Origin: Phlebiopsis flavidoalba
Taxonomy: Eukaryota > Basidiomycota > Agaricomycetes > Polyporales > Phanerochaetaceae
Direction of reading: 5' to 3'
NCBI GenBank assembly: GCA_035772785.1
Contig: JAOCPU010000026.1
Coordinates: 186,001-250,000 of the forward strand
Length of the DNA stretch: 64,000 bases
The position numbers and the translations under genes are program-made. The notes below the pieces were generated by a model. That model worked only from the letters and a program-made list of their open reading frames with translations. It made no database searches and had not been told where the DNA came from. Below are positions 36,101 to 40,619 of the stretch, in pieces (within the stretch, counting starts at the first letter, position 1; each line of letters begins with the position of its first letter).

Positions 36101-38984
36101 GTGTTGGTCAGCGGTGCTACGACTCAGCTAGTGGCGTAAGGGTTTGCGTGGAAGTTTTGTCGGTGTAAGCGCAGAAAGCTGCTTTATACCTGGCGAAGCA
36201 AGATCCGCGTCGGAACGAAAAAGATCGTTCGCCAAACTCTAAGCTCGCCATGGCAACAAGATCGCGCTTCACTACAGTCTAATCGATGCGAATAAATTCA
36301 CAAGATTCACAAATTAAGACCATAACAATTCAGACAAAATCTACCTATTCTACAACAAGAAACCCGGCCAATCGTCCATCCCATAATACTTACAGTGAAC
36401 TCAGACTGCGACGCATCACTAACAAACACAAAAAGAGGCGCTACGCGAGGGCGTAACATGTGCAATCGTAGATCGGCAGTCATACCAAGCGACGAAAATA
36501 ATTTCGTGCTAACGTTTGGGAGCGGGACACAGATTAGGAAGGTAATTAACCCAGTTATCGTTTTGGGCTGCATGAGACGCGTATTAGGATGACCGCGGAC
36601 GGCGGGGGGTGTATCGGTATGAGTGTTCCAATGCACTTTTCATCCAAAAACAAAAAAACTTAGGACGAAACCACAGGGATAGTGACAGAAAAGAGGAGAC
36701 AGGCCGGCGACCGAGCTAGCACGCAAGCAGTCCACCCCCCCACCCTTGCTGCCTCCCTCCGGGGCCAAAAAAATAATATACCACCGCAGCCGCGCGCATC
36801 GCCCTCCGCGCGCCATACTAGCCCTACGGAACCTCAACCCCCTCCCGCGCCCTACTCCGCTCGGCACTCCCGCGTATCCGTCTCCGTTACCCGTGGCTGC
36901 GGAGCTTCGTACGTGCCTCCCATTATCTGCTCCTCGTACCGAATCCGAGCGGGATGCGTCTGCAGTTAGCTGGCTGAATAGTCCGTCCCAGGCTCAGGGT
37001 CGTGGTTCTGCCCGGATGCCGTCCTGGCGCCTGGTGGTTTGTGGTGGTGGGATAGTGTTGGTAGGGGCTGTGGGGCGGTTATTGACATTAGTAGGAAGGC
37101 AATTCGGCGAGAGGAAGCGGTTTCGGGGTGCTGCTGTGGGAGGGCTTGCCTTGGTCGACACAGTTTTGGGTTGCTGTAAGGAGTGCACCGTGCGGGACGG
37201 GTGTGTTTGGCAGGTAGAATGCGAGTTGTGGTTAGTGTGGACGTGTTTGGGGCGCGGGCTGCTGGAGAGTCCATGGCGGAAGGAGGTGGTGCGGGGATGT
37301 GTTACAGGGCTCGGAGTTTGTTGTGGTGTGTTGGTGGTGGTTGTTGAGTGGTGACTATGGGTGGTTTGTGTAGTGCTGGCGCGTGCGGAGGGCAGGGTGT
37401 GTCAGGCCGGTCTGTGGCCAATCCGCGGTGTCACCGTGGCTCATACTAGGGCGTCAGTTGTTCGTCTGTGTCCATCAGTTATGTATTGAAAATTGGGTGG
37501 GGTGCGGGAGGAGTGCGCGTACCCTTCGCCGTACGCTTTTACCGGCGGAGTCGTCGCCCTGAGCCGGCCATTATATGCTGCGGAGGAAGTCTTCCTTTAG
37601 TCGAGCCGACCCTGTGTTGCTCGGTCAGTTCTTCACTGGTGTGCACAAAGGCGACAAGGCATCGTTTCACTGTGTGAGCTGCTTGGATGCACGGTCCGCC
37701 GCGGGGCCATACACGGTCCCGATCTTGACGTCGGCCGCACGATGTGCGCGGCGAGCTGGTCGCGGCGTGGGTCCGTTGACGACCCCGGCGCACGGAGGGT
37801 CGTCGGATCTGATGATCGTGTTCCGATGATGCCTCGACCTGGTGGCAGTCGCGGTGGCAGCTACGAGTCGCGAGGTACTTGTACCCTTTCGTGGGCCACC
37901 CTGCTTATGGCTTGGGCCCTAAGCAAACATACTTCAGCGTGGGTCTGGCGGGGCTATTGTAAGCGTCGGCGGCTTTGTGTCTTATCCAGTCATAGGTGCG
38001 TGGCTTTGCTGCGTTGACACATGGCGGGCAGCAGATGAAGAAAAGCAAGGAGGAGGGAATCAGGGCACAGTACAGACACCCATCGTCGGTCGCACAGTTG
38101 GCCGCGCGCAGATTGTTTTTCGAAGCTGCTTGGATTCGCTCGCAACGTTACACTCTTGCGTCCTGGTCGGCAGCTGAATCGCAGGCTTGTTCCCACTCCG
38201 TCATCCGATCGACACAGCCAGTAGTCCGGGGCCGGCGACGTACCTCGCGTGTGCTCTCGGCGCCCCAATCGGTTGGCGGCGCTGCTGCGTCGTGCTGCCC
38301 GGCGCGTGGCGACGCTGCCGCTGTGTTCGGGTGGGGCCTCGTCGGACACGTTCGGGTGTGAGGTGTCGGTGTGGTTTGTGCATCGGTGGGGGGTAGGGAT
38401 AGGCGTAGGGTAGCAGGGTGGGTGGGAGGGGGAGAGAAGACGCCTGCGGGGGCCAGTTGTGCTTATATACTATCAAAGGCAAAAGGGCCGTGTGGAAGTG
38501 GCCGAGGGAGGGGATGGAGACTTGGAGGAGAGACTTGGGGCCTGAACTTGGGGCGGGCTTCCATAGGAGCTTTATACACCAGATCACGCTGCAGATCACC
38601 CACCGCCACGCACTGTTGGCACGCGAGGGGCCGCCCTGGCGTCCGTTTGCCAGAGCCGCCACGGGCTTCTGGACTCACGCTGACTTTGCCCGACTGTGCC
38701 AGACGTCGGCCGGGGCCACACGCAGGTCGCTCTCGCATGCCGCACAGCCTCGCGCGGGGCCCAGCACCTTCGACGCCCTTCTCGCGTCCCCCGCCGCGCC
38801 CATTACGGCCATCCCTAGGGGCACACCACCACGACGAACCTTGCCCGTTGCCCTCGGAAAAAATCCCGCGCGCTGCTTGAACGTCACGCCCCCAGAGCCG
38901 CGCAGGCTGGGATTTTGGGTTGGGGGGGCGTCCACCGTCTGATCCAGGTGGAAACCCGGGAGCCAACCGGCGTCTGCCGACGCA
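36101..38984. other. Unassigned, GC-rich after 36.7 kb
   Basis: The longest open frames (36746-37354 plus; 38371-38880 and 38418-38942 plus; 38463-38987 minus) overlap each other on both strands. They are Pro/Arg/Gly-rich and show no domain. A short AT-rich stretch (36.25-36.55 kb) separates this from the minisatellite. No gene is supported. Confidence 0.35.
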
Positions 38985-40234
38985 CACTGCGGAGAAATTA
39001 CGATGAATCTGCCGGATTTCATGCTAGATACGCACACACTGCTAGACGCTGAAACAATGCGTCTCCCATATTTTCGTCACGATAGATTGCGAGACAAATT
39101 GAAGAAAAATAATGAATAAAATCTAACAATAAAGCGCAATGATACAAATTTAATAGAATGTGTGCTATATTTTTTAATTGACCTATGGAATCATCTTTGT
39201 TAGAGACCTTAGAAAGATATGCGAACCGCTTTATCTGGGGATAAATGCGGGGATATATTCTAAATAAATTTGCTAGCATGCAGATACTTTGGAAAAAAAG
39301 GCCACCAGTTATATAGTGGATATTTGAATCATGCTGAAATGAATGGTTCTAACCTTTTCTCTTGACTATTCACTGTGTAGATCTGTGTAATCACTGTGGA
39401 TGATGTGGGGAGATTTCTTGAATAAAATCCACCAGGATATATTTTTGATTATGCTGCAGAGAGTATTTCAATATTTTTTTTCTTTAGCCCATGCATTGAT
39501 ATCAAGGCTACAGTGAATATTTGGTGAGTGTCGTAGAGATTTCGAAAATCTAGTGTATATTTATTTAGAATAAATCTGCCATCAAGATGTATCTGTCAGA
39601 TAAATCATCAAATTAACGCTATATCTGGCAGATACATTTTGACGGCGGATTTTATCCCAAATGAATATGCACTATATCTTTCAAATCCCTCTAACTAAAC
39701 ATCCAACTATAGCATTTAGTACAATGCATGAGCTGGGAGAAAGGTGTTTGAAAATACTCTTCACACCACAGTCAAAATATATCCTGTGTGATGAATTCAA
39801 TAGATCCTCCTCTACAAAATCCACAGTGATTACACAGATGATTAGTCAACGAGAATGGTGAGAAATATTCCATTAATAAGCATGCACCAACATATTCTCA
39901 TCATCTAGCTTGCTGTTTATTTTTTCAAAGTCATCTTACATGCTTAGCAGATTTGTTCAGAATATCTCCTCTTGCATTTGCCCCCAGACAAGCGGTAAGA
40001 TATCTTTATAATGTATCTAAACAGGATCATCTCTATAGGCTAGTAAAAGGATGCCAGAAGGCATATTCTTTTGAAATTTTAGCTGCACTTTATTCATTAA
40101 GGTTCCTTCAATATTTTTTCTGCCCATCTATACTACCAATTATTGTGAAGAACACATGGAAGACACATTGTTTCAGAGTCTAGCCGTGCGTACAACATAA
40201 ATCGGCGGATTCATCGGAAATATCTCCGCCAGTG
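38985..40234. mobile_element. AT-rich palindromic (foldback) element, 1,250 bp
   Basis: The whole element is one imperfect inverted repeat centred near 39,612, with almost no unique spacer (about 18 bp, 39,603-39,620). Matching pairs run from the ends (left CACTGCGGAGAAATTACGAT; right, reversed, CACTGGCGGAGATATTTCCG) through CTGTGTAATCACTGTGGAT (39,382 and 39,820-39,838) and the CCGCTT..TCTGGGG segments (39,227 and 39,980) to ATGTATCTGTCAGATA near the centre. The termini begin CACTG and are flanked by a possible 3-bp target duplication, GCA (38982-38984, 40235-40237), as in CACTA-type elements. It is sharply AT-rich within GC-rich DNA. Open frames 39661-39861 and 39953-40183 mirror the minus frame 39019-39279. 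No recognised protein. Confidence 0.75.
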
Positions 40235-40619
40235 GCACCTCCTTCCCCAGCCCCCCTCAGCCACGCCCCCGCCCGCGTGCCACCCTTGCCCGGATCCGCT
40301 GCACTACAGCCGTCTGTCGTGGCGGATCCCTTTTTTTCCTTGGCCGCTGTGAGCCTGTTTTAGCTCGTTTTGCGTTTTCCGCAATTGCGTTGCGCATGGT
40401 CCGATTCTTGTTCTCTCGTCCCCGCCACAAGAGCTATGCGCCGAGCCAACTCTGTCGGCTCTTCCCTTCCCCCCCCCGTCACCCGGCCCCCTTCCCCTTG
40501 GGATATCTTTAGGGGGTTACATTTTCTCGGGCCTGATTAGGCGGCAACACAACCCCAAACGTAGCGCGACGCAGCAAATGGGCCTCTGGATCAGGGCCCA
40601 TTCCGGTGCTCCTCTCCGA

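Follow-up and report, generated by a model that had tools for sequence, protein, structure and literature searches.

Long palindromes are unstable, and we know of no settled answer to the question of how foldback transposons hold their long inverted arms alike. Hairpin MITEs are gene-less, hairpin-forming elements with inverted ends and a length of tens to hundreds of base pairs. Short MITEs that are palindromic are also known, which makes the statement in the initial annotation of this DNA that ordinary MITEs have unique middles too strong. Subterminal short repeats are a feature of CACTA/EnSpm elements. In the accessible part of one account, fungal EnSpm/CACTA elements are called by CAC..GTG termini together with 3-bp target duplications (PMC12730594). 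For the foldback-like element Tetris, the available portion of the report describes repeats that group together in two of three complete elements, read as possible homogenisation (PMC4079207). Here we describe an element with CACTG ends that is a single palindrome over its whole length, found in the window, the stretch of 64,000 nucleotides from Phlebiopsis flavidoalba that was analysed.

The palindrome in the window and its relatives

The element occupies positions 38985–40234 (1250 bp; 35.5% G+C, against 57.5% in the flanks). It runs from CACTGCGGAGAAATTA at the left end to AATATCTCCGCCAGTG at the right end, with GCA on either side (38982–38984 and 40235–40237), which flank comparison identifies as a 3-bp target site duplication. 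The end carried by the element is CACTGCGGAG, and the terminal 16 bp, CACTGCGGAGAAATTA (38985–39000, forward strand), provide a pattern for finding relatives. Half-to-half alignment and an alignment of 22 arms define a left arm of 617 bp on the forward strand (38985–39601) and a right arm of 612 bp on the reverse strand (39623–40234), which is the left arm copied inverted; an unpaired centre of about 21 bp lies between them (39602–39622). No strand is assigned to the element as a whole, its duplications, its centre or the region 39405–39813, which comprises the inner third of both arms with the centre and in which, across copies, an arm's own partner is never its nearest arm. A 26-nt arm segment on the forward strand (39381–39406), 92% complementary to 39814–39839, sits near the point at which rehomogenisation stops in sister copies. 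The longest stop-to-stop frame in the element is 113 aa; Rfam at gathering scores gave no match anywhere in the window, and Pfam gave none for 18 window ORFs.

The palindrome is real and far beyond chance. Aligned to each other, the two halves agree at 459 of 595 letter-to-letter columns (655 columns when gaps are counted) and score 446, against scores of -50 to -90 for the five printed out of 30 mononucleotide shuffles. The same permissive alignment gives those five shuffles 62–66% identity, so that percent identity by itself is a weak yardstick and the score is the evidence. The arm-to-arm identity of the window copy in the 22-arm alignment is 71.4%, above the limit of about 60% that the initial annotation had set for its full-length inverted repeat at 38985–40234. 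That annotation placed the palindrome, its CACTG ends and the flanking GCA correctly, and only its 18-bp centre needs to be widened to about 21 bp.

Searched with the element as query, the window's own assembly (36.3 Mb, 129 contigs) yields at least 26 matches at a minimum of 13 candidate places. At least 11 of these are palindromic copies, scattered and 1.16–1.26 kb long; the matches on contigs C40 and C84 are fragments. Every one of the 11 has matches to the query in both orientations, covering most or all of the copy, so none has inverted ends around a unique middle. The 11 copies align end to end with sharp common ends. Both CACTG-type ends are kept in ten of them (L009 has lost its right end), and nine of these ten carry an exact 3-bp target duplication (GCA, CGA, TGA, TCG, AGA, TAA, CTA, TAC and again AGA, eight different triplets); the flanks of the tenth, L005, are TAT and TAC, alike at two of three bases. 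Comparison of the insertion-point flanks of the ten copies revealed no common sequence, and the ten are therefore separate insertions; one 122-bp repeat is common to the flanks of L002 and L008, at different distances. The longest stop-to-stop frames across the 11 copies span 58–148 aa, with none above 148 aa. Dispersed copies and target duplications show movement: the element is mobile DNA, and the family is apparently gene-less, CACTA/EnSpm-like and palindromic over its whole length. The left flank of L010 (C4:420592–420841) is an AT-rich repeat with 42 other genome matches among those listed, most of which break off no more than a few bases from where the palindrome inserted; with such a repeat as left flank, no empty site was demonstrated for this copy.

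The inverted ends are of the CAC..GTG type (CACTG..CAGTG), and with the 3-bp duplications and the whole-length pairing they uphold the earlier description of a CACTA-like foldback. Assigned by its ends and duplications, the element appears to behave like a non-autonomous CACTA element served by a putative partner transposase. Inverted ends and a target duplication are MITE traits as well; MITEs usually occur in high copy number, and the element, which at 1.2 kb is long for one, has at least 11 palindromic copies. A GAATAAATCTGCC-like motif, chosen by eye and allowed up to three mismatches, occurs one to six times per arm in the seven arms checked, and shuffles have means of 0.15–0.37 and maxima of 2–4.

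With as many as two mismatches allowed, the 16-base end is present at 38 sites in the whole genome, against 4 for a reversed-pattern control. Palindromic copies account for 18 of them, one-armed relatives for 2 and a 77-base fragment for 1; the other 17 lie elsewhere. At the ten of these 17 that were examined, there was no convincing opposite end within 1.5 kb (one was viewed over 10 kb) and no coding partner. An opposite-end search at 13 loci returned only pairs with three mismatches, without matching 3-bp flanks. A genome profile search with PF02992 (Transposase_21) gave one match, at C1:1514651; it was rejected as the partner, its score lying below the cut-off and four ORFs there having no Pfam match at E 0.01. 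The Plavaka transposase family (PF18759) has 46 matches in the genome, many with in-frame stops (for example C112:17679, C10:386890 and C45:78797), and was set aside as the partner after three loci of 8–9 kb showed no end pair like the element's. The Plavaka locus L056 holds one CACTG pair matching at 13 of 16 bases, without a 2- or 3-bp duplication, which by our own estimate is of the sort expected by chance. The element itself is not Plavaka: that group is likewise CACTA-related, but its ends, as given in the accessible part of PMC12730594, are TGT..ACA or CATCA..TGATG rather than CACTG..CAGTG.

Three one-armed relatives (L041 at C26:66458, L042 at C26:148513 and L055 at C96:7977) have arm-length homology up to the centre motif, followed by a common tail of about 200 bp that the genome search places at these three loci only. 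No second arm or right end appears in the roughly 1.5 kb viewed, and the outer end of L055 is decayed; beyond the first 120 bases, the arms of all three score z 5–11 against two palindrome arms. L012 (C40:311660–312158) is a solo arm that starts near arm base 51 and reaches the centre of the palindrome, with the other arm and the end missing, and suggests loss at the centre. The one-armed relatives may be products of breakage at the centre, or remnants of a relative with long inverted ends. L028 (C30:91148) holds just the first 77 or so arm bases and then unrelated DNA, with an F-box-like reading frame, predicted by eye, farther along.

Old inner arms and overwritten outer arms

The palindrome is whole-length and old, and was later overwritten arm-to-arm from the ends in single copies. 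Within-copy arm identity is 0.71 in the window copy, 0.76–0.81 in six copies, 0.83 in L008 and 0.88–0.91 in L002, L003 and L004. Mere drift of the arms away from one founding palindrome should leave every left arm in a single group. For the 22 arm sequences, left and right, of the 11 copies (802 alignment columns), the whole-arm tree rejects such a single left/right split (lnL 58 lower, p-AU 0.00025), and the rejection is driven by L008, whose right arm is placed within the left arms (97/96). Once L008 is removed, the left arms all fall on one side of the whole-arm tree (support 88/96), so the case for L002–L004 rests on separating outer from inner arm; with the window copy removed as well, the split is not rejected (p 0.30).

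Over outer columns 1–526 of the 802, a cut picked after seeing the data and with which a later change-point scan agreed, the single split is rejected far more strongly (lnL 237 lower, p-AU 7.7e-7), and a copy's own two arms pair with each other in L002, L003, L004 and L008 (bootstrap 100, 100, 99 and 98). Over inner columns 527–802, lefts group mostly with lefts and rights with rights, L008 excepted, and the split has a p-AU of 0.48. Rejection of the split in the outer columns and not in the inner ones argues that rehomogenisation of the arms has recurred, working inward from the element ends. All 11 copies retain an inverted repeat in their inner third (z 12–21 against 200 mononucleotide shuffles). 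The initial annotation's view of the palindrome as old thus stands for the inner third and gives way, in the outer part, to later arm-to-arm rehomogenisation in sister copies.

The edges of the tracts can be located in individual copies. L003 changes at arm base 400, with 396 of 399 bases matching before it and 123 of 173 after; L004 also breaks at arm base 400 (375/392 before it), L008 at 396 (349/386) and L002 at 261 (255/260). For these four change points, none of 300 permutations was as good in the full scan. Five other copies change at 90–114 bases and L011 at 468 (0–3 of 300 permutations). The window copy, which has no real change point (46 of 300 permutations), is an old copy without recent rehomogenisation. 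An arm's nearest relative among the other 21 is its own partner for 8 of 22 arms outside and for none of 22 inside. Copy-private changes on both arms number 29 outside versus 2 inside, with 21 of the outer ones in L002, L003 and L004 and only 2 in L008; single-arm private changes number 167 outside and 114 inside. We take recent rehomogenisation to have affected four of the 11 copies, with L006, over its last 109 bp or so, perhaps a fifth. Of 63 markers, 38 and 41 are left-type in the two arms of L008, and A-group arms have only 31–36 right-type ones; any direction of overwriting that we infer is noisy. The result comes from one assembly, and near-identical inverted arms can gain false identity through assembly itself.

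The four rehomogenised copies, L002, L003 (C20), L004 (C71) and L008 (C14), are all found no more than 21 kb from a contig end, and the other seven palindromic copies lie 33–419 kb away. A subtelomeric position of the four, an idea that arose post hoc, found no support, there being no (TTAGGG)3 in the assembly. At the end of C14, L064 has a run of 69 G close to the contig end.

Repeat-induced point mutation is not supported as the cause of the AT-richness and divergence: among singletons, C>T (13) and G>A (20) are outnumbered by T>C (25) and A>G (37), hence no C-to-T excess, and TpA/ApT is 0.60–0.75. CpG is depleted in the 11 palindromic copies (CG/GC 0.25–0.75, against 0.5–1.06 in most flanks), possibly a sign of methylation and slow loss of methylated CpG. 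A search for tandem sub-repeats in the arms gave no clear sign of them in 12 unit comparisons from four arms (z -1.4 to 2.4); averaged arm autocorrelation has a weak peak at lag 24–25, and a tandem finder reports two short pairs of 11–12 bp in the window copy. Lacking clear tandem sub-repeats, the element is not a classical Foldback element, though it has the same shape.

Maintenance of the arms

We propose, as the probable explanation, that the element is a non-autonomous CACTA/EnSpm-type palindrome that is moved in trans and kept by repeated end-inward overwriting of its arms. A transposase acting on the CACTG ends and making 3-bp duplications would move it in trans. The persistence of the palindrome is best explained if sequence from one arm repeatedly replaces that of the other, a process that would begin at the element ends and proceed inward to the too-diverged inner third. 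Breakage or resection at one end of the element would allow one strand to fold back onto the other arm; alternatively, gap repair could copy the opposite end. Mismatch repair or synthesis would then render the arms alike, and the process would stop at the inner third because this no longer pairs well. The overwriting is thus most likely gene conversion, of a fold-back or gap-repair kind. The accessible part of a yeast study makes the first step plausible, describing inverted repeats near a break that anneal intramolecularly into fold-back structures; in that part, fold-back shifts repair away from gene conversion and towards break-induced replication, and arm conversion is not demonstrated (PMC6103520). 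Gap repair with template switching is invoked in the available portion of a paper on Galileo (PMC4168063).

A more tentative proposal is that rehomogenisation is tied to the transposition cycle: the transposase would open an end, the resected strand would fold back and the outer arms would be corrected, so that each new copy would start out with outer arms nearly perfect over as much as about 400 bp and with the inner third, already too diverged to pair, left as it was. We regard this coupling as possible but doubtful. If it were true, arm difference would measure the time since each insertion, and the palindrome would be a self-renewing trait.

Other processes could make or keep arms alike. 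Selection for a base-paired hairpin RNA, as a source of small RNAs, would maintain complementarity through compensatory changes, and the element is indeed predicted to fold into one long hairpin: the window copy comes to -483 kcal/mol, where five shuffles average -271, and L003, which contains unbroken helices of 136 and 118 bp, comes to -867 against -260. Private changes on both arms also exist. Pairing selection should, however, act in a spread-out manner and tolerate G-U pairs, whereas the likeness comes in contiguous, end-anchored tracts with abrupt edges, is almost complete in some copies but missing from others, and does not extend to the inner third, where identity stays at about 70%; because of these tracts, the RNA explanation accounts for the data less well, and we consider it quite improbable. 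Inverted dimerisation of a single-armed ancestor, making each palindrome lineage anew, is favoured by the existence of one-armed relatives whose homology stops at the centre motif (L041, L042, L055, and L012 on C40). New dimers should nevertheless match up to the centre, as 0 of 11 copies do, and the inner third of L002, L003 and L004 retains separate left and right lineages that are common across copies, from which it follows that the palindrome is older than the outer rehomogenisation; this origin seems unlikely. The good conservation of the first 100 alignment columns (means 0.81–0.96 in all group comparisons) would fit ordinary decay in which a strong constraint on the ends, needed by the transposase, keeps the outer arm alike with no conversion. 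Yet such constraint would also liken copies to one another, whereas the outer arms of L003 match each other at 0.992 and pair apart from those of L004, and the 29 outer private changes are common to both arms of a single copy. We judge this last explanation very improbable.

Repeated overwriting from the ends, our preferred explanation, has consequences for how such elements are read. Arm divergence need not equal element age. Copies with alike arms, if transcribed, would yield near-perfect dsRNA. Four copies show apparent single events, each with its own end-anchored tract and sharp edge, and the unconverted inner third is an internal control; the question of arm maintenance thereby becomes testable by strain comparison.

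Comparison with known systems

Hairpin MITEs differ from this element, which is about 1.2 kb long, has a low copy number and probably undergoes arm conversion. With fungal EnSpm/CACTA elements, as the accessible part of PMC12730594 presents them, it shares CAC..GTG termini and 3-bp duplications; it differs in having no recognised gene, in being palindromic over its whole length and in that its partner was not found. Like Foldback elements, it consists of long inverted arms with little or no middle, and very long inverted arms are likewise described in the available portions of reports on the Foldback-like Galileo (PMC3573991, PMC4168063), Tetris (PMC4079207) and Tm1 (PMC3169594). In those portions the target duplication is 7 bp for Galileo and 9 bp for Tm1; here it is 3 bp, and the element has hardly any middle and no clear tandem sub-repeats.

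In our searches of titles and abstract openings in the open-licence library, we found no palindromic CACTA-like fungal element and no end-anchored arm conversion in one. An active process that keeps arms alike is described in the accessible parts of work on human Y palindromes (PMC3723533) and nematode long inverted repeats (PMC1803023). In comparison with those, the probable conversion here takes place in a small mobile element, is anchored at its ends and goes no further than the old inner third. Transposons with long arms and palindromes with converting arms are each known in their own right; those searches brought up no CACTA-like element that is palindromic over its whole length and whose arms appear to be converted from the ends.
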